From positions 1-10,988 of the forward strand of contig JAJTBM010000061.1 in assembly GCA_021286885.1 (NCBI GenBank): a stretch of 10,988 nt of DNA, read 5' to 3'. Below are positions 843 through 10,988 of the stretch, one piece after another; position 1 is the first letter of the stretch; the number at the start of each line of letters is the position of its first letter. A model generated the notes under the pieces. The model did not search any database, was not told where the DNA came from, and worked only from the letters and a program-made list of their open reading frames with translations. Origin of the DNA: Rhodocyclales bacterium. GTDB taxonomy: Bacteria; Pseudomonadota; Gammaproteobacteria; Burkholderiales; Rhodocyclaceae. The position numbers and the translations under genes were made by a program.

Positions 843-1283
843 ATGGGCATGACACTCTGGATTCACACCCTGGAGAACGGCCATTACTCCCAGGAAAGCG
901 AAGACCACAGCCTGATGCATCGCCACAGCGAGGCCCTGGATGCCCTGTGCGACAGTCTTCAGGTCCAACGCCTGAGCGAGTTTTTCGACTTCACCGACCT
1001 GGAATACAACTACGGGGAAGACCTGGACGATGAATGCGGCGAGGACGTGGAACCCGACCCCATCACCGGGCTGGGTTATGGGATTGCCGACATGCAGTGG
1101 TTCGAAGCCCAAGCCGGCCTCGCCACCCTCGGCCAGCTCCACCAGGCCGTGAGCGCCATGGCCCTGCCCGAGCTGCCCCCGGTGCAACGCAGCCAGCTGC
1201 TGGCCGAACTGGAAGACTGCCTGCAGGTGCTGCAAAACACCGCGCCCAGCGGCGGGCACTTCCACTTGGCGGTGCTGGAATAA
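843..1283 (+). CDS. Acidic hypothetical protein, 146 aa
   Basis: I do not recognise a family. The protein is soluble-looking and strongly acidic, with no signal peptide or membrane segment. Residues 45-70 hold an aromatic and acid-rich stretch (FFDFTDLEYNYGEDLDDECG), followed by a predicted helical C-terminal half (QLHQAVSAMALPELPPVQRS, LLAELEDCLQVLQ). The ATG at 843 is preferred because AAGGA at 829-833 sits 9 bases upstream; a second in-frame ATG at 849 is possible. The gene has its own 160-base upstream gap with a possible promoter, and the YitT gene follows after 56-66 bases on the same strand. The usual GC-rich codon use, a plausible ribosome-binding site and a coherent composition support a real gene. 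The acidity could suit a protein-protein interaction or inhibitor role, but nothing in the sequence shows this. Confidence 0.75.
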   Translation: MGMTLWIHTLENGHYSQESEDHSLMHRHSEALDALCDSLQVQRLSEFFDFTDLEYNYGEDLDDECGEDVEPDPITGLGYGIADMQWFEAQAGLATLGQLHQAVSAMALPELPPVQRSQLLAELEDCLQVLQNTAPSGGHFHLAVLE

Positions 1284-1348: not shown

Positions 1349-1999
1349 ATGAATTCCACATCAGCCTCCACCTCAGCTTCCACCGCTGCCCCCAGCCTGC
1401 CGCCGCGCCAGCCCCACACCCTGCTCGAAGATATTCAGGCCCTGCTGGTGGGCTGCTTTTTTGTGGCCCTCTCGGTGCTGGTGTTCCGCCATAGCCACCT
1501 GATGCCGGGCGGCACGGCGGGCCTGTCTTTTTTGGGGCATTACCTGGGCGGCTGGCCCATCGGGGCGGTGCTGTTCGTGGTCAGCATCCCGTTTTACCTG
1601 TTTGCCTACCGGGCCCTGGGGCTGGCCTTCACGGTGCGTACCTTTGTGGCGGTGGGGGTGCTGTCGGTCTACACCGAAGTCCTGCCCGCCTTCATCAGCT
1701 TTGGCCCCCTGCACCCGGTGGCGGCCGCCATTACGGCGGGGCTCCAGGCAGGCGTGGGGATTCTGATCCTGATCCGCCACGGGGCCAGCCTGGGCGGGCT
1801 GGGGGTGCTGGCCCTGTATCTGCAGAAAACCCGGGGCTGGCGGGCGGGCACGGTGCAGATGGCGGGCGATTGCCTGATCCTGCTGGCCGGGCTGCTGGCC
1901 ATGTCCCCCACCCAGGTGGCGCTTTCGGTGCTGGCGGCGGGCGCTTTAAATCTGGTGATCGGCGTCAATCACCGGCCCGGGCGTTACTTCGGGGCCTGA
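1349..1999 (+). CDS. YitT-family integral membrane protein (short form)
   Basis: This is a polytopic inner-membrane protein of the YitT/DUF161 family, whose function is not established. With the start at 1349 it has 216 residues; the ATG at 1340 would add three. I favour 1349 because the only purine-rich stretch (GGGTAAG, 1333-1339) abuts 1340 but is well spaced for 1349. After a Ser/Thr/Ala/Pro-rich tail come about six hydrophobic segments. Two halves look like an internal duplication: LMPGGTAGLSFLGHYLGGW in the first and ASLGGLGVLALYLQKTRGW in the second, both with the family's GG motif. The cytoplasmic DUF2179 domain found at the C-terminus of the ~280-residue Bacillus-type proteins is missing, as in many proteobacterial members. 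The gene converges on, and overlaps by 16 bp, the 3' end of the minus-strand transglutaminase-like gene. Family assignment is good; substrate is unknown. Confidence 0.85.
   Translation: MNSTSASTSASTAAPSLPPRQPHTLLEDIQALLVGCFFVALSVLVFRHSHLMPGGTAGLSFLGHYLGGWPIGAVLFVVSIPFYLFAYRALGLAFTVRTFVAVGVLSVYTEVLPAFISFGPLHPVAAAITAGLQAGVGILILIRHGASLGGLGVLALYLQKTRGWRAGTVQMAGDCLILLAGLLAMSPTQVALSVLAAGALNLVIGVNHRPGRYFGA
1361..1384 (+). repeat. Tandem 12-bp repeat in the N-terminal tail of the YitT gene
   Basis: TCAGCCTCCACC is followed directly by TCAGCTTCCACC (11 of 12 identical), encoding SAST twice. It lies in the low-complexity tail before the first membrane segment. The repeat length keeps the frame, so copy changes would only lengthen or shorten the tail. 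Confidence 0.6.
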
Positions 2000-2967
2000 G
2001 CGGGTACTTCGGCCAGGGGCACGGGGCCGCGCATCAGCCCGCCCTCGGGCATCTCGGCCCAGGGCATCACCGTTACGCGCACCTCCGGGTTCTGGGCAAC
2101 CCCGCCCAGAATCACCCCGCGCAGGGGCGACACGTCCTGAAAATCCCGCCCCCAGCCCAAGGTCACGTGGTGCAGGCCGGGGCGGATGTTGTTGGTCGGA
2201 TCAAACTCCACCCAACCATGCTGGGGGCACCAGACTGCCACCCAGGCGTGGGAAGCATCGGCCCCGATGAGCCGGGGCTTGCCCGGTGGTGGCGCGGTGA
2301 GCAGATAGCCCGACATGTAGCGCGCCGGCAGCCCGATGGAACGCAGCGCGGCGATCATCAAATGGGCGAAGTCCTGGCACACCCCCCGCTTGCGCTCCAG
2401 CACATCAAACACCGAGGAACCCACCTCGGTGGCCTCCGGATCGAAGGTGAAGTCTTCAAAAATCAGCGCCATCAGCGCCTCAGCCGCCTGCAATACCGGC
2501 GCCTCGGGCGTAAACACCTCCAGCGCCAACTGGGCCAGGGCCGGGGCGCAGGGCACCCGGGGCGAGGCGTACAGATAGCGCTGGGCCTCCAGGGATTCGG
2601 GGCTGCGCAGGCCGGGGCGGTAGTTGAAACCATCCCGCACCATTTCCCAGGGCGGGGACTCGGCCAGATCCGGCACAGGCCGGGGATGCACCGTCACATC
2701 GCTCTCGGCCCGCACCAACAGCCCATCGTGGGGCGTTTCCAGGGCCAGCCAAGCCACCGGATTGCCGAAGGCATCCAGCCCTTCGCGCAAGGCGGCCTGA
2801 TCAGGCTCGATCAGGATGTGGCAGTCCCCCAGGGTCTGGTGGGGCAAGGCCCTAGGCATCAGGTGGAGCAGATGCTGGGCCAAGGACACCGCCACCCCAC
2901 AGGCCGGGTACTCGGTTTCGTGGATGATGCAGTAGCGGATGGGATTCAAGCAGGCAGTCTCGCTCAT
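1984..2967 (-). CDS. Transglutaminase-like cysteine protease-fold protein, 327 aa
   Basis: Residues ~10-95 form the bacterial transglutaminase-like N-terminal domain (IRYCIIHETEY, AQHLLHLMPRALPHQ). Residues ~150-265 form the transglutaminase core with an intact catalytic triad: Cys197 in RGVCQDFAHL, His240 in ASHAWVAVW and Asp256 in WVEFDPTNN. The family cleaves or transfers at amide bonds of peptides or glutamine side chains; no substrate is known for this branch. There is no signal peptide, so a cytoplasmic location is expected. The ATG is supported by GAGG (plus strand 2975-2978) 7 bases upstream. It is the last gene of the three-gene minus-strand block, 23 bp after the ATP-grasp/alpha-E gene, and its 3' end overlaps the YitT gene. 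Context suggests it trims, releases or transfers the product made by the two ligase-type proteins encoded upstream. Domain and triad are clear; role is inferred. Confidence 0.92.
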   Translation of the reverse strand: MSETACLNPIRYCIIHETEYPACGVAVSLAQHLLHLMPRALPHQTLGDCHILIEPDQAALREGLDAFGNPVAWLALETPHDGLLVRAESDVTVHPRPVPDLAESPPWEMVRDGFNYRPGLRSPESLEAQRYLYASPRVPCAPALAQLALEVFTPEAPVLQAAEALMALIFEDFTFDPEATEVGSSVFDVLERKRGVCQDFAHLMIAALRSIGLPARYMSGYLLTAPPPGKPRLIGADASHAWVAVWCPQHGWVEFDPTNNIRPGLHHVTLGWGRDFQDVSPLRGVILGGVAQNPEVRVTVMPWAEMPEGGLMRGPVPLAEVPAQAPK

Positions 2968-2990: not shown

Positions 2991-5513
2991 TCAAGCCGCA
3001 AAGGTGGCCTGACCGGCATACCCCACGTGGGTGAAGTAGCGCATGGCCAGCCGATCCGAGAGCTGACGCCCCGCATGCACCAGCCGATCCAGGGCCTCGG
3101 CCAGGTGCAGACTGGCCTCGATCCGCTCGCTGGCGGGCCGGGTCGCCTCCAGGCAGGCCCAGTCAAAGTCCTGCAAGCGGGCAAAGGCCACGTTCAGTTC
3201 TTCCAGCTCCAGCCCACCCCAGCCCTGCATGGAATGCAGGTAGCTGCTCACCAGCCGCACCTGAAAGGCCATGGCGTGGGGGTTGGCCTCGTCCGTCACC
3301 AACAAGTGCAGGGCCGGCAACAGCTCGGGCTGGGCCCGGTAACGGGTACGGTAGGTGATGATGGAGTCGCATAGTTCCAGCAGCGCCTCCACCGCCAGCT
3401 CCTGCTGGAGTGGCAGATGCAGGTCGGCATGGCGGCGCAGGAAGCGGGCCAGGGTGGTGCCCAGGCTGTCCAGACGCTCGATCCGGCGCCCCAGGATGTG
3501 CAGGCGCCAGCCGGTGTCGCGGGTCATGTTGTCCATCGCAAAACCGGACAGGGACACAAAAGTGGTCAGCGCCTCGTCCAGAAACTCCAGCAGGGCAGGC
3601 ACGTCGCTCACCTTGCTGCGGCAATCTTCCAGCTCGGCGGTGAGGCGCTTGAGGGCGTGCCAGTTATCCAGCGACAAATGCTCCCGGGCCTGGTTGGCGC
3701 ACCAGGTGAGGCGTTGCAGATTTGAGGCCAGCCCGTTGGGCGAACGCCGGTCCAGCACCGCCCGGAACAGATCCAGCTCGGCCTTGGCGATGGGGGCCTT
3801 GAGCACCTCCGCATCCACCAGCCCCATGCCAATGGCCAGCTCCAGCATCATCACCAGGGCACCCGAGCGTTCCACTTTGCGGCTTTCGGAGAGGCGCGAG
3901 AGGGCGAGCCGGGCGAGCCGGGCCACCGCATCGCAGCGCTCCCCGTAGCGCCCGAACCAGAACAGGTTTTCGGCCAGCCGGGACGAAAGGGTGCCCGTCT
4001 CGCGGATGAGATCCTTGGCCCGCACCGTCTGGTGCAGCTGGGAAAAGGCCGACACCGGGCCGTCCGAGAGCACCCAGGTATCCTTGCTGCTGCCGCCCTT
4101 CTGCATGGTCAGGATGCGGGTGTTCTCCACCCCCGCCACCCGGGCCAAACCGCCGGGCAGCACGGTATAGCCTTCCGGCGTCAGGCAGACATACACCCGC
4201 AGCCCCATGGCCCGGGTCACCAGCTTGCGGCGCTGGCCGCCCGCCCAGGCCGGGGCCCGGGACAGCTTGACCAGCTCCTGGGCCACGTAGGCCGAGGGGT
4301 TGGCCTCGATCCGGGCCATCAACGCATCGCGCTGGGCCTCGCTCAGCTGGTCGCCAAACACCGCGCCCTCGCCGCTGCCCGGAAAGGTGGGCTTGATGAC
4401 CAGATCCTCGAAACGCTCCAGCACCTCGGCCCGGGCGGGGGTTTCGCCACACCACCAGGTGGCCACCGAGGGCATGGCCAGTTCCTCGCCCAGCAGGTGC
4501 TGACAGATGCCCGGCAAAAAGCCCGGCAAGGCCGCCGATTCGAGCAGGCCGCTGCCCAGGGCATTGGCCACCAGCACCCGGCCCGCGCGCACTGCGCCCA
4601 GCAGGCCCGGGATGCCCAGAGCCGAGTCGGCGCGCAGCTCCACCGGGTCGCAGAAATCATCATCCAGCCGGCGCAGGATGGCGTGCACCCGCTTCAGGCC
4701 GGAAACGGTTTTCAGGTAAACGGTGTTGTCGCGCACCGTCAGATCCTGCCCCTCCACCAGGGGATAGCCCAGATAGCGGGCCAGATAGACGTGTTCAAAA
4801 TAGGTTTCGTTGAACGGCCCCGGCGTGAGCAGCACGGTGAGGGGCGGCTCCCCGTCGGTGGGCGCCTCCTTGGCCAAGGTGCGCTGGAGCCCCCGGAAGA
4901 AGCGCCCCAGGCTTTCCACCTGGAGATCCCGGTACAAATCGGGAAAGGCGCGGGACACCAGCATCCGGTTTTCGAGCGCATAGCCCGCGCCGGAAGGCGA
5001 CTGGGTGCGGTCAGCGATCACCCACCAGCGCCCGTCCGGCGAGCGGGCCAGATCGGCCGCATAAAAATGCAGGTAATGGCCGCCCACCGGGCGCATGCCC
5101 TGGCAGGGCCACAGAAAGCCCTTGTGGCCGAACACCAGCTCGGGGGGCAGCAGCCCCTCCGCCAGGGTGCTCTGGTCGCCATACAGGTCGGCCAGCAGGG
5201 TATCGAGCAGGCGGGCGCGCTGGGCCACCGCCGCCGAAATCTGGCGCCACTCCTGGGCCGGCAGAATGAGGGGGAGCAGATCCAGCGACCAGGGGCGGTC
5301 GGTGCCCCGGGGGTCGGCATAGACGTTGTAGGTGACGCCGTTCTGCTGGATGCCCCGGGCCAGCTGGGCGGCCCGGGATTTGAGGGGTTCCCCGCTGGAT
5401 TCCTCGATGTGATCGAGGAATTCCTGCCAGTGGGGACGCACGCCCTCATCCCCGAACAGTTCATCGTAACAGTCGGGGCGATAGGGGTAATGGTTGAGGA
5501 TGGAGCTGGTCAT
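2991..5513 (-). CDS. Fused circularly permuted ATP-grasp (type 2) and alpha-E protein, 840 aa
   Basis: Residues ~75-495 are the circularly permuted ATP-grasp domain (DUF404/DUF407 class). Diagnostic segments are WWVIADRTQSPSGAGYALEN at 163-182, LVIKPTFPGSGEGAVFG at 371-387, carrying the likely nucleotide-contacting lysine Lys374 and a glycine loop, and LPGGLARVA at 452-460. ATP-grasp enzymes use ATP to form an acyl-phosphate and then an amide or thioester bond. Residues ~506-835 are the all-helical alpha-E domain (DUF403), starting with TLSSRLAENLFWFGRYGER; its function is unknown. In many genomes these are two adjacent genes of roughly 480 and 310 residues; here they are one polypeptide, implying physical coupling. 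There is no signal peptide. The ATG at 5513 fits the family N-terminus, though no strong ribosome-binding site precedes it. Genes for transglutaminase-like proteins flank it on both sides, in the same orientation. Confidence 0.93.
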   Translation of the reverse strand: MTSSILNHYPYRPDCYDELFGDEGVRPHWQEFLDHIEESSGEPLKSRAAQLARGIQQNGVTYNVYADPRGTDRPWSLDLLPLILPAQEWRQISAAVAQRARLLDTLLADLYGDQSTLAEGLLPPELVFGHKGFLWPCQGMRPVGGHYLHFYAADLARSPDGRWWVIADRTQSPSGAGYALENRMLVSRAFPDLYRDLQVESLGRFFRGLQRTLAKEAPTDGEPPLTVLLTPGPFNETYFEHVYLARYLGYPLVEGQDLTVRDNTVYLKTVSGLKRVHAILRRLDDDFCDPVELRADSALGIPGLLGAVRAGRVLVANALGSGLLESAALPGFLPGICQHLLGEELAMPSVATWWCGETPARAEVLERFEDLVIKPTFPGSGEGAVFGDQLSEAQRDALMARIEANPSAYVAQELVKLSRAPAWAGGQRRKLVTRAMGLRVYVCLTPEGYTVLPGGLARVAGVENTRILTMQKGGSSKDTWVLSDGPVSAFSQLHQTVRAKDLIRETGTLSSRLAENLFWFGRYGERCDAVARLARLALSRLSESRKVERSGALVMMLELAIGMGLVDAEVLKAPIAKAELDLFRAVLDRRSPNGLASNLQRLTWCANQAREHLSLDNWHALKRLTAELEDCRSKVSDVPALLEFLDEALTTFVSLSGFAMDNMTRDTGWRLHILGRRIERLDSLGTTLARFLRRHADLHLPLQQELAVEALLELCDSIITYRTRYRAQPELLPALHLLVTDEANPHAMAFQVRLVSSYLHSMQGWGGLELEELNVAFARLQDFDWACLEATRPASERIEASLHLAEALDRLVHAGRQLSDRLAMRYFTHVGYAGQATFAA

Positions 5514-5587: not shown

Positions 5588-8500
5588 CTAGCGTCGCAAA
5601 TCCAGGGTGAAGGGGAACTCCTTATCCACCTTGGAAGCGGTGAAGCTGGGCTTGCCCGGGGTGTAACCCATCCGGAAGAAGCGCGCCAGACGCCGGCTTT
5701 CGGCCTCGAACGCATTCACCGGGAAGGTCTCGAAGTTGCGCCCGCCCGGGTGCGCCACATGGTATTGGCAACCGCCCAGGGAGCGCCCGGTCCAGGTATC
5801 CACCAGATCAAACACCAAAGGCGCGTGGGACGGGATGGTCGGGTGCAGGCAGGACGGCGGCTGCCAGGCCCGGTAACGCACCCCGGCCACATGCTCGCCC
5901 ACGGTGCCGGTGGGGTGCAGGGGGATCACACGCCCGTTCACCGCCAGCTGGTAGCGCTCTTCGGACATCCCGCGCACCTTCACCTGCAGCCGCTCCACCG
6001 AGGAATCCACATAGCGCACGGTGCCACCGGCTGCGCCCTCTTCGCCCATCACATGCCAGGGCTCCAGGGCGCTGCGCAGTTCCAGCTGGATGCCGCGCAC
6101 CGCCAGATCACCGATCAGCGGGAAGCGGAACTCCAGATGGGGGGCAAACCATTCGGGCTTGAAGGCGTAGCCGTGGGCCTGCATGTCTTCCATCACATCG
6201 GCAAAGTCCTGCTCCACAAAATGGGGCAGCAGGAAGCGGTCGTGCAGCTCGGTGCCCCAGCGCACCAGCCGTTCCGGCGCGTAGGGGTTCTCCCAGAAGC
6301 GGGCCAGCATGCCGCGCAGCAAGAGTTGCTGGGCGAGCGACATGCGCGCATGGGGCGGCATCTCGAAGGCGCGCATTTCCACCAGACCCAGGCGCCCGGT
6401 GGGGCCGTCCGGCGAGTAGAGCTTGTCGATGCAGAACTCGGCCCGGTGGGTGTTGCCGCTCGCGTCGATCAGCAGGTTGCGCAGCAGCCGGTCGATGAGC
6501 CAGGGCTGCATGGATTCGCCCACCGGCGGGAACTGGCGGAAGGCGGTTTCGATTTCGTACACCGAGTCGTTGCGCGCTTCGTCGATCCGGGGCGCCTGGC
6601 TGGTGGGCCCGATAAACAGGCCGGAGAACAGGTAAGACAGACTCGGATGGTTGTGCCAATACGAGATCAGGCTGCGCAGCACATCCGGGCGGCGCAGGAA
6701 GGGGGAGTCCGCCGGGGTGGCGCCCCCCAGCACAAAGTGATTGCCCCCGCCGGTGCCCGTGTGGCGCCCGTCCACCATGAACTTTTCGGAGGTCAGGCGC
6801 GAATGGTGGGCCGCATCGTAGAGGTGGGTGGTGCGCTCCACCAGCTCGCTCCAGTTGCTGGCCGGGTGGATGTTCACCTCGATCACGCCCGGGTCGGGGG
6901 TCACGCGGAAGTTGGTGAGGCGCGGGTCGGAGGGCGGCTCATAGCCTTCCAGCACCACGGGCTGCTGCATCTCCTCGGCGGTGGCCTCGATCACGCTCAC
7001 CAGCTGGAGATAGTGCTCCAGATGGCGCAGGGGCGGCATGAAGATGTGCAGGATGCCCTGACGCGGCTCCACGCACATGGCGGTGCGCACCACCCAGGAG
7101 GCCGACTCGAAGCTGTCCGGCTGGGTATCGGTGGGCAGGGCGCTGGGGCGCTGGCCCCGCCCCTGCCCCAACACCGGGCTGGGGCCCCGGGCGGCGCGGG
7201 TGCCAAAACCGGGGGCGGCCTGGAGCGCATTCACCAAGGCGGTCTGGCCGCCGGGCAGTTGCTGGCGGATCAGGGCATGGTCGGGCAGGGGTGCAAAAGG
7301 CTGGTGCGGATCCAAGGGGTGCAGATAGGGGAAATCAGCCTTGCTCACCCAGGGCTGGGAATCCAGCGGCAGCCGGTAGCCCAGGGGGGAGTCTCCGGGG
7401 ATCAGGTAGCAGCGCTCCTCGCGCAGGAACCACGGGCCGCTTTCCCAGCACCCATCCTCACCCACGCCCACCGGCAGCACATGGCCCACGGCGGTGGGCA
7501 GGCCCTGCTCGAATACCTTGCGTATCCGGGCCCGCTCCAGGGCGTCATCCAGGCGGGCATCGAAGGGATCCACATTCACCGGCAGGCGGCGCTCCCGCCA
7601 CATGTAGTAGAAGGCGTCTTCGTAGGCGGGGAACACCCGTTCTGCATCCAGCCCCAGGCGGCGGGCGATGCCGGCCAGCAAGGCGCCCGCATCTTCCTCC
7701 GTCGCCGTGCCCGGGCGGGCAGTGTCGGCGATCAGCGCGGGATTCAGCCAGATGGGCTGGCCGTCCTTGCGCCAGAAGCAGTTGAGCGACCAGCGCGGCA
7801 GCTGCTCGCCCGGATACCACTTACCCTGGCCAAAGTGGGCCAGGCCCTGGGGCGCGTACTTGGCCTTGAGGCGCTTGTAGAGGTCTTCGGCCCGCTCCCG
7901 CTTGTGGGGGCCCAGGGCGGCGGTGTTCCACTCGGCCCCATCCGGGTCGTCGATGGACACAAAGGTCGGCTCGCCCCCCATGGTGAGGCGCATGTCGTGG
8001 GCGTCCAGATCCAAGTCTATGGCGTGGCCCAGGGCTTCGATCTCGGCCCATTGTTCTTCGGTGTAGGGCTTGGTCACGCGGGGGGCTTCATACACCCGGC
8101 TGACGCTCATCTGGTGATCGAATTCGCATTCGCACTTCTCGATCAGGCCAGACACCGGCGCCGCCGACGAAGGATCGGGCGAAGCGGCGAGCGGGATGTG
8201 CCCCTCGCCCGCAAACAAGCCGGAGGTGGGGTCCAGCCCCACCCAGCCGGCGCCGGGCAGATACACCTCGGTCCAGGCGTGCAGATCGGTGAAATCCACC
8301 TCGGTGCCGGAAGGGCCATCCAGGGATTTCACGTCGGCCTTCAGCTGGATCAGGTAGCCGGACACAAAGCGCGCCGCAAAGCCCAGGTGGCGCAGCAACT
8401 GCACCAGCAACCAGGCCGAATCCCGGCAGGAGCCGGTGCGCTTGGTGAGGGTTTCTTCGGGGGTCTGAACCCCGGGCTCCATCCGGATCACGTAGCCGAT

Positions 8501-8965
8501 GTGCTGCTGCAGGGCGGCGTTGATGCTCACCAGAAAATCCACCATCCGAGCTTTGTCACGGGAGATGCCGCTCAGGTACTCCTTGAACAGGGGCGTGGCC
8601 TCGTCCTTCAGGCGGAAGGGGGCCAGTTCGTGACTCAGGGCGCCGGCGTATTCAAACGGGAAAAACTCGGCCTCGGGCTCCAGAAAGAAGTCGAAGGGGT
8701 TGATGACCGACATCTCGGCCACCAGATCCACCTCCACGCTGAATTCAGTCACCTTTTCCGGAAACACGATCCGGGCCAGGTAGTTGGATTGGGGATCCTG
8801 CTGCCAGTTGATGAAATGGGGTTGCGGCTGGATGCGCAGCGCGTAAGACAGAATGCGGGTACGGCTGTGGGGTGCCGGCCGCAGACGCACCACCTGGGGC
8901 CCCAGGGACACCGGGCGGTCGTATTTGTAAGAAGTCAGGTGGTTCAGGGCAACATGGATGGTCAC
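5588..8965 (-). CDS. Transglutaminase-like protein with DUF2126 domain, 1125 aa
   Basis: Residues ~1-95 are the transglutaminase-like N-terminal domain ([20 protein letters not shown]). Residues ~135-255 are the transglutaminase core with Cys180 ([10 protein letters not shown]), His229 ([10 protein letters not shown]) and Asp245 (WVGLDPTSG) in place. Residues ~310-1125 form the DUF2126 region, with conserved-looking segments [11 protein letters not shown] (327-337), [10 protein letters not shown] (696-705), [17 protein letters not shown] (732-748) and [12 protein letters not shown] (861-872). DUF2126 has been described in comparative work as a circularly permuted glutamine-synthetase-like COOH-NH2 ligase, so this protein probably combines an ATP-dependent amide-forming site with a thiol amidase or transferase site. 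A Pro/Gly-rich linker lies at ~583-620. Length is normal for the family. The start is GTG, backed by GGAG 7 bases upstream. No signal peptide is seen, so it is likely cytoplasmic. It is the first gene of the block and has a sigma-54-type promoter match upstream. The domain call is firm; ligase chemistry is inferred. Confidence 0.93.
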
Positions 8966-8972
8966 GGGCTTA

Positions 8973-8976
8973 CTCC
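8973..8976 (-). promoter_or_regulatory. Ribosome-binding site deciding the GTG start of the DUF2126 gene
   Basis: The minus strand reads GGAG, then 7 bases, then GTG. No in-frame ATG at a comparable position matches the family N-terminus ([13 protein letters not shown]), so the GTG start is preferred. Confidence 0.75.
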
Positions 8977-9012
8977 GTTCTTGGAACTGCGTTAGGGCTG
9001 GCCTGCCGGTTT

Positions 9013-9028
9013 AGCAAGCTTCACGCCA
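9013..9028 (-). promoter_or_regulatory. Sigma-54 (RpoN) -24/-12 promoter match
   Basis: The minus strand reads TGGCGTGAAGCTTGCT. Against the sigma-54 consensus TGGCACG-N4-TTGCW it matches TGGC, the following G, all of TTGC and the final W, with the required GG-N10-GC spacing. The preceding C and the following AAA also fit the extended consensus. It points toward the DUF2126 gene; the expected transcript start is near 9002, giving a leader of about 37 bases before the GTG. No comparably good sigma-70 promoter is seen in this gap. Position, orientation and spacing all agree, but this is a motif match only. Confidence 0.6.
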
Positions 9029-9048
9029 GCAGGTTTACGCGTTCCGGA

Positions 9049-9065
9049 TTGCCATTTGATGGCAA
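9049..9065. promoter_or_regulatory. Perfect 7-bp dyad, possible operator beside the sigma-54 site
   Basis: TTGCCATTTGATGGCAA has perfect 7-bp arms around a 3-base centre. It ends about 20 bp upstream of the -24 element and partly overlaps the T-run of the neighbouring terminator. It could be a protein-binding site modulating the operon promoter; no T-run follows it in a direction that would make it a terminator itself. Confidence 0.4.
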
Positions 9066-9090
9066 AAAACGGGTTTCAGGCCCCGAAACC
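9064..9090 (-). terminator. Intrinsic terminator downstream of cobA
   Basis: On the minus strand GGTTTC (9090-9085), a 7-base loop, GAAACC (9077-9072), CG and then six Ts (9069-9064) give a standard rho-independent layout. The stem is 6 bp, short but perfect. It lies about 100 bases after the cobA stop and ~100 bases before the DUF2126 start, so it would separate cobA transcription from the peptide-ligase operon. Confidence 0.65.
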
Positions 9091-9103
9091 GGGCTTGGCG
9101 CCT

Positions 9104-9120
9104 CCATTCCGGGGGAATGG
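9104..9120. repeat. Perfect 7-bp hairpin in the cobA 3' region
   Basis: CCATTCC (9104-9110) and GGAATGG (9114-9120) form a 7-bp stem with a GGG loop. It sits between the cobA stop and the terminator, and between the NtrC-like sites and the sigma-54 promoter. It may stabilise the cobA message or be a binding site; no T-run follows. Confidence 0.4.
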
Positions 9121-9131
9121 CCCACCGGCTG

Positions 9132-9146
9132 GCACCAACATGATGC
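9132..9146. promoter_or_regulatory. NtrC-like enhancer site (promoter-proximal)
   Basis: GCACCAACATGATGC differs by one base from a perfect GCACC-N5-GGTGC dyad, the NtrC (NR-I) recognition pattern, and an A follows as in the full consensus. Its centre is about 137 bp upstream of the predicted sigma-54 transcript start, in the usual range for an enhancer. The call depends on the pairing with the neighbouring dyad and the sigma-54 match. Confidence 0.5.
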
Positions 9147-9155
9147 ATGGATGCC

Positions 9156-9170
9156 GCACCACCCTGGTGC
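9156..9170. promoter_or_regulatory. NtrC-like enhancer site (promoter-distal)
   Basis: GCACCACCCTGGTGC is a perfect GCACC-N5-GGTGC dyad, fitting the core of the NtrC consensus. Its centre lies 24 bp from that of the second site and about 161 bp upstream of the predicted sigma-54 start. The alternative reading is a 6-bp hairpin in the cobA 3' region, 21 bases after the stop codon; no T-run follows it. Confidence 0.5.
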
Positions 9171-9191
9171 GCCAGATCAAGAAGCGGTGTT

Positions 9192-10079
9192 TCAGCCCAC
9201 CGTAGCCCCGGTGAACCAGGCCATGCGCTCGGCCAGATCCACCACCTCCCCGACGATCAGCAGGGCCGGGGGGCGAACCCCCGCCTGGCGGGCCCGTTCG
9301 GGCAGGATTTCCAGGGTGCCGCACACCACCCGCTGCCGGGGCGTGGTGCCATTTTCGATCAGCGCCGCCGGGGTGGATGCACCACGACCATGCGCAATGA
9401 GGGCGGCGCAGTGCGCCTCCAGCATCCCCACCCCCATGTAGATCACCGTGGTCTGGCGCGGACGGGCCAGGGCCACCCAGTCCAGCTCCGAGGCGCCCGC
9501 CCGGCGGTGGCCGGTGGCGAACATCACCGATTGGGCATGATCCCGGTGGGTGAGGGGAATCCCGGCATAGGCCGACACCCCACAGGCGGCGGTGATACCG
9601 GGCACCACTTCAAACGGAATATGGGCGTCGATCAGGGCTTCGAGTTCTTCGCCCCCACGCCCGAACACGAAGGGGTCGCCCCCCTTCAGGCGCAACACCT
9701 CATGGCCATCCAGGGCAAGATCCACCAGCAGGCGGTTGATTTCTTCCTGGGGCAGGGTGTGGTGGCCGGATTCCTTGCCCACGTAGTAGCGCCGGGCCTG
9801 GGCGGGGATCAGGGCGAGCACGCCCTCGCCCACCAGATGATCCACCACCACCACCTGAGCCTGGGCAATCAGGCGGGCGGCCCGCACGGTGAGCAGATCC
9901 GGATCACCCGGTCCGGCGCCCACCAGGACCACCCGCCCTCCTTCCCCCCGGGATGTCCGGGCCGATGTTCCGGCCCACAGGGACACGCCCCCCGGCCCCT
10001 CCCCTTCGGCACGCTTGAACAAGGCGTCCATGCCCCCCACGGCGGACGCTTCGAAACAGGCTGACAAGGACAGCGACAT
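9192..10079 (-). CDS. cobA: Uroporphyrinogen-III C-methyltransferase (CobA/NirE type), 295 aa
   Basis: The enzyme methylates uroporphyrinogen III at C2 and C7 with S-adenosylmethionine to give precorrin-2, the branch point to siroheme, cobalamin and heme d1. The core runs from residue ~48 to the end with family signatures: [16 protein letters not shown] (50-65), [17 protein letters not shown] (129-145), [20 protein letters not shown] (158-177) and [14 protein letters not shown] (239-252). It is the single-domain form without the CysG oxidase/chelatase part. The frame is open further upstream, but ATG at 10079 is chosen because GGGAG sits 7 bases before it; residues 1-47 are then an extra N-terminal tail, and Met17 is an alternative start. 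Placed divergently from nirS and sharing an FNR/DNR-type box, it probably serves as NirE in heme d1 synthesis, possibly with siroheme duty too. The function is firm; the pathway is inferred from context. Confidence 0.93.
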
Positions 10080-10086
10080 GACGGCA

Positions 10087-10091
10087 CTCCC
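10087..10091 (-). promoter_or_regulatory. Ribosome-binding site deciding the cobA start
   Basis: The minus strand reads GGGAG, a 7-base spacer, then ATG at 10079. This favours the 295-residue form over a 338-residue reading from 10208, whose added codons would run through the FNR/DNR box. Confidence 0.75.
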
Positions 10092-10100
10092 GGGATTTGA

Positions 10101-10988
<888 letters not shown>

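Follow-up and report, generated by a model that had tools for sequence, protein, structure and literature searches.

A predicted NtrC-activated sigma-54 promoter ahead of an operon for DUF2126, ATP-grasp–Alpha-E and transglutaminase-like proteins in a probable Zoogloea genome

In 2009, Iyer et al. reportedly proposed a series of amidoligase and peptide-modification systems from domains and gene neighbourhoods, and Hervas (2009) is said to be the primary paper on the Anbu operon of Pseudomonas putida. The operon described here shares with the former systems the domain set of ATP-grasp, Alpha-E, transglutaminase and putative glutamine synthetase (GS)-like amidoligase, and its promoter would add to them a physiological condition. 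To our knowledge, no product of the DUF2126, ATP-grasp, Alpha-E and transglutaminase proteins has been reported.

According to excerpts of the published work, proteins of the same kinds are encoded by the cluster I35_5080-5083 of Burkholderia cenocepacia H111, whose expression in an ntrC mutant under nitrogen limitation was followed by RNA-seq, with log2 changes of -8.2 for I35_5080 (DUF404/DUF407), -9.4 for I35_5081 (DUF403), -9.4 for I35_5082 (transglutaminase-like) and -6.0 for I35_5083 (large transglutaminase-like); the cluster is listed among the common targets of sigma-54 and NtrC (PMC5491218). From its name and from the gene order in B. arboris, we infer that I35_5083 is the DUF2126 protein. 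In P. putida, excerpts report that the Anbu operon PP_2685-PP_2688 is induced by nitrogen limitation, an effect attributed to NtrB/NtrC (PMC7801951, PMC8050072, PMC3325844). This link is repeated in the structure papers PMC6376114 and PMC5666114, both of which cite Iyer et al. (2009), and the latter describes expression as unchanged under various other conditions. The Anbu operon resembles ours in its transglutaminase and ATP-grasp kinds, accompanied by Alpha-E in the operons described by PMC6376114, but the P. putida operon includes a proteasome-like Anbu subunit, and DUF2126 is not mentioned for any of its four genes, whereas in our operon DUF2126 is present and Anbu is absent. The same domains have also been associated with urea-metabolism domains in marine metagenomes (PMC3597751, excerpt).

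An earlier note on this DNA had held that no link between such a system and nitrogen limitation was established. This was wrong, as the link is in print for both the H111 cluster (PMC5491218) and the P. putida Anbu operon (PMC7801951). It appears under older DUF names, a possible reason why it is easily missed; the name DUF2126 was not found in the literature searched, which mostly excludes subscription papers. Seven other articles were set aside, as far as their excerpts go: hvyA (PMC10274813) is another transglutaminase homologue, transglutaminase is absent from the main text of PMC5748707, PMC3610870 concerns a different DUF, PMC12096838 and PMC12239564 concern inactive membrane transglutaminases, and PMC5333837 and PMC12316311 have no bearing on the operon question. 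The regulation predicted below would therefore not be new in kind, and the operon would be a further member of a known regulon, to which we add cis-element evidence, conservation in the genus, and the spread and limits of the arrangement across lineages.

The locus was analysed in a window of 10,988 nucleotides, the whole stretch of DNA considered here, which is contig C54 of a 3.44 Mb draft genome that is 80.5% complete. The genus is probably Zoogloea: of the loci found, the closest one with a named source is that of Zoogloea sp. 1C4, with 81% identity across the DUF2126 protein. Three genes on the minus strand form the operon, with intergenic gaps of 74 bp and then 23 bp, and a fourth gene lies upstream of them:

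Positions 5588-8965, minus strand: operon gene 1, transglutaminase-like domains plus DUF2126 (putative amidoligase), 1125 aa (Pfam matches, structure model)
Positions 2991-5513, minus strand: operon gene 2, circularly permuted ATP-grasp fused to Alpha-E, 840 aa (Pfam matches; PDB relative 3N6X)
Positions 1984-2967, minus strand: operon gene 3, transglutaminase-like protein, 327 aa (Pfam matches)
Positions 9192-10208, minus strand: uroporphyrinogen-III C-methyltransferase, named nirE, outside the operon, start codon uncertain (TIGR01469 above cut-off)

All four domain kinds thus occur in one operon (PF09899, PF14403, PF04168, PF01841 and PF08379, each above its cut-off). In B. arboris, from which the Burkholderia gene order was read, ATP-grasp and Alpha-E are separate, whereas here DUF2126 comes first and the other two are fused. 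The structure model of the DUF2126 protein matches 3ISR, which is transglutaminase-like, as well as the glutamine synthetase fold; Foldseek alone returned no matches other than transglutaminase-like ones at E < 0.001. The Proteasome family, used to look for an Anbu subunit, had no match among the eight window proteins scanned, and its one match in the draft genome (80.5% complete) lies away from the window in a 189-aa open frame. An Rfam scan gave no element at the gathering threshold. The methyltransferase is probably nirE, since its divergently oriented neighbour, like nirS, combines cytochrome c with cytochrome d1 domains; we infer both gene names. Elsewhere in the window, a 146-aa reading frame (843-1283, plus strand) without a Pfam match is flanked by genes for an AraC-type regulator and a YitT-type membrane protein.

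The gap between nirE and the operon (8966-9191) was searched with the general consensus patterns for sigma-54 and NtrC sites, and the following elements were recognised in it and at its edge:

Position 8965, minus strand: GTG start codon of the DUF2126 gene
Positions 8973-8976, minus strand: GGAG, probable ribosome binding site ahead of the GTG (sequence; AACGGAG block conserved in the genus alignment)
Position 9002, minus strand: predicted transcript start, 12 bp past the -12 GC (from the geometry of the box)
Positions 9013-9028, minus strand: sigma-54 -24/-12 promoter box TGGCGTGAAGCTTGCT (pattern match, genus conservation)
Positions 9062-9090, minus strand: terminator-like hairpin with a T-rich tail, located between dyads and promoter (sequence scan)
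Positions 9132-9146, no strand assigned: proximal NtrC-type dyad with a single mismatch, at 24 bp from the distal dyad (pattern match, genus conservation)
Positions 9156-9170, no strand assigned: distal NtrC-type dyad GCACC-N5-GGTGC, perfect (pattern match, genus conservation)

Read on the minus strand from 9028 to 9013, the box agrees with TGGCRYG-N4-TTGCW at all 12 informative positions, has the GG-N10-GC spacing and is oriented toward the DUF2126 gene, as had been claimed for a strong match at this place. The strict pattern occurs once in the window, where shuffles predict 0.02, and eight times across the 3.44 Mb draft genome with both strands summed. A -24/-12 consensus of GGcacg-N4-ttGC is given in an excerpt of PMC5491218.

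The two tandem dyads, one with a single mismatch and one perfect, were likewise found where the earlier note had put them, and they agree with the tandem NtrC dyads that glnA-type promoters carry about 100-200 bp upstream. The distances of 137 and 161 bp given for them hold when each dyad centre is measured from a predicted transcript start near 9002, but not from the GTG start codon, upstream of which the dyads sit at 167-205 bp. Taken alone and inside the window, the dyads are weak evidence that is not clearly above chance: four with at most one mismatch were observed against 1.42 expected, and 10 of 200 shuffles reach four. In the draft genome, the perfect GCACC-N5-GGTGC occurs in 44 places, and 691 dyads have at most one mismatch.

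It is their conservation across the genus that sets these elements apart from chance matches. Among 23 genomes, 21 including the source genome have a close DUF2126 orthologue, which left 20 others for comparison; the other two (G010 and G011, 72% and 95% complete) have only a distant paralogue with 33% identity. All 20 orthologues carry the box, 63-66 bp ahead of the start codon, with 16 agreeing at 12/12 positions and four at 11/12. All of them also carry a dyad with no more than one mismatch (nine are perfect), and each has another GGTGC half-site spaced at exactly 24 bp (21/21 when the window is counted). The proximal dyad has three mismatches in 15 relatives, two in two and one in three, its left half being degenerate in most. 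In the genus alignment, conserved islands mark the dyads, the box and the ribosome-binding region, and the DNA between them is diverged and variable in length. Looking for the motifs in close orthologous upstream regions, as the earlier note had suggested, therefore found both kinds kept throughout (20/20). A further locus of the genus, the 3.7 kb L114, holds a distant transglutaminase paralogue, and inspection of its listed ORFs by eye revealed no Anbu gene.

The same comparison bears on the reading that the dyads are a 3' hairpin of nirE or chance palindromes and the box a chance match, with the operon read from nirE or from an unseen promoter. One-mismatch dyads are indeed common in the source DNA, and the distal dyad lies 22-36 bp beyond the nirE stop. 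However, nirE is close upstream in eight of the 20 relatives and has a partial or more distant match in two more, while in the other 10 the upstream DNA covered (only 459 bp for L111) contains no nirE match and the dyads and box nevertheless persist. As they persist where nirE is not a neighbour, the elements travel with the operon rather than nirE, and we rejected the dyads as a nirE terminator. In addition, a separate terminator-like hairpin (9072-9090) stands between nirE and the promoter, and the whole structure at 9062-9090 would be expected to stop transcripts coming from the upstream gene. In none of the other 20 genus members was a hairpin found at the matching place, and three have one elsewhere in the 330 bp. 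Taken together, we regard a chance or nirE-derived origin of these elements as extremely improbable.

The source genome encodes NtrC at C542, above the TIGR01818 cut-off, and RpoN as a protein with a sigma-54 DNA-binding domain at C129. The ntrC contig also bears glnA and ntrB (TIGR00653 and NF008293, both above cut-off), with ntrB and ntrC downstream of glnA. Ahead of glnA are two perfect dyads (1713-1727 and 1743-1757), 30 bp apart in pitch, and a -24/-12 box at 1822-1837 that agrees at 11 of 12 positions. The glnA-ntrBC promoter is a positive control for the pattern inside the source genome, in that two GCACC-N5-GGTGC dyads are followed by the box in both places; it differs in its dyad pitch (30 bp vs 24 bp at the DUF2126 operon) and in that the glnA dyads are closer to the box.

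The likeness of the dyads to those at glnA, together with their retention in 20/20 genus relatives, also argues against a sigma-54 promoter that is activated by another enhancer-binding protein of the source genome. Several NtrC-like proteins besides NtrC are encoded there, and at 11 loci, mostly Comamonadaceae, a strong box is kept without clear NtrC dyads (L057, L064, L069, L072, L074, L076-L078, L080, L082 and L083); those loci may use a different activator or an enhancer at another position. At the operon studied here such an activator seems very unlikely, since a NifA-type site (TGT-N10-ACA) had no match in the window and the Burkholderia cluster is NtrC-dependent in the excerpts of PMC5491218. 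Those data also weigh against a third explanation, namely that the bulk of the transcript comes from a sigma-70 type promoter, with the sigma-54 promoter as a supplement. Anbu and other proteins of its operon do show moderate constitutive expression (PMC5666114, excerpt), which would be in keeping with this idea, but the drop in the B. cenocepacia ntrC mutant is very large (PMC5491218, excerpt). A sigma-70 promoter, which had been named as a finding that would speak against the prediction, was not seen in a simple scan of 8900-9260, and we judge a dominant role for one to be very improbable.

With the motifs kept in the genus and the published NtrC dependence of the H111 cluster (PMC5491218, excerpt), the predicted NtrC/sigma-54 control of the operon is supported, and we are highly confident that the gap at 8966-9191 would act as an NtrC-activated sigma-54 promoter of the DUF2126, ATP-grasp–Alpha-E and transglutaminase genes. 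The operon is very probably switched on in nitrogen shortage by DNA signals of the glnA type. In the mechanism that we propose, sigma-54 RNA polymerase would occupy the -24/-12 box and remain inactive until nitrogen runs short, when phosphorylated NtrC would sit on the two tandem dyads, some 137 and 161 bp ahead of the transcript start, loop over and, through ATP hydrolysis, open the promoter to give a transcript from about 9002.

To follow the arrangement across lineages, the box was scored as at least 10 of 12 matching positions between -150 and -20, for which 0.030 are expected per locus with the rest of the same DNA as background. Among the best-matching 80 loci of the species collection, 78 were usable (L011 and L024, without upstream DNA, were left out). 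The box was present in 55 of the 78 (2.3 expected), with at least 11/12 positions in 24 (0.4 expected) and 12/12 in 12 (0.03 expected), counts that are not independent because the loci are related. For L058, L063, L065 and L067 the start used was the tblastn match start, upstream of the DUF2126 gene, and the latter two count as matches and the former two as misses; L005 and L110 (G004) seem to come from one strain, their contigs being equally long and their motifs identical. By group, the box was found in 28/28 loci of the Pseudomonas group, which includes L014, titled gamma proteobacterium L18, and in 27/50 others, so that 23 of the 50 non-Pseudomonas loci in the 80-locus set are without it at the position tested. 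A dyad with at most one mismatch occurs in 27/78 loci (3.5 expected), and its co-occurrence with the box is not significant (Fisher p = 0.19).

A wider sample of the class gave a sparser picture. Searched with the first 250 residues, 64 of 369 sampled genomes, source genome included, gave a relative at E <= 1e-60, so these proteins are common in the class. Besides the source genome (G000), the sample held 65 places in 63 genomes, of which a fragment (G290:C81) was dropped and 64 were read; 62 have at least 150 bp of upstream DNA for the box test and 61 at least 330 bp for the dyad test. Only 13/62 carry the box (1.8 expected) and 8/61 the dyad (0.4 expected), with a co-occurrence p of 0.055. 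Judged by these motifs, control of DUF2126 operons is lineage-dependent and, because box and dyads are often missing outside the near lineages, many family members must be regulated otherwise or from elsewhere.

Where the gene order is altered, the signals can be found ahead of a different gene. In Burkholderia arboris, with the order ATP-grasp, Alpha-E, transglutaminase, DUF2126, a 10/12 box lies near the locus edge. A B. cenocepacia record from a strain other than H111 has an 11/12 box before the ATP-grasp gene and a perfect dyad that starts 79 bp further upstream, and two Achromobacter loci carry a 12/12 box and a perfect dyad ahead of the transglutaminase gene that precedes DUF2126. In Burkholderia and Achromobacter, box and dyad thus precede the first gene of the operon, although that gene is not DUF2126.

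As to function, our confidence is much lower than for regulation. The products most likely combine ATP-dependent amide-bond making with transglutaminase-fold remodelling or cutting, acting on a peptide or protein conjugate within a starvation programme, and the system may make or recycle a nitrogen compound. A more specific and doubtful possibility, offered tentatively, is a nitrogen-starvation conjugation pathway in which the GS-like and ATP-grasp ligases would tag proteins or peptides with an amino acid or peptide, and the transglutaminase-fold enzymes would trim or release the tag. If so, cell nitrogen would be marked for storage or recycling by a bacterial counterpart of tagging systems, without a proteasome subunit in the operon. 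A conserved nitrogen-starvation promoter, also placed before the first gene in altered gene orders, gives a condition under which substrate and phenotype can be sought.

Six plasmid loci were also read. Two from Azospirillum and one from Shinella have neither box nor dyad near the start, a Halomonas locus has a 10/12 box and a dyad with one mismatch, and a Caballeronia locus has box and dyad ahead of the ATP-grasp gene, both inside an annotated hypothetical ORF. The Azospirillum plasmids (L196 and L201, Alphaproteobacteria) carry a relative with about 71% identity across the first 250 residues; these copies may have been acquired by lateral transfer and have lost NtrC/sigma-54 control. The sixth, an Enterobacter locus, has a 10/12 box about 370 bp before the ATP-grasp gene, without a dyad. 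It lies on an IncFII plasmid of Enterobacter roggenkampii (L200), where ATP-grasp, Alpha-E, DUF2126 and ATP-grasp stand in a row about 2 kb from arsC.
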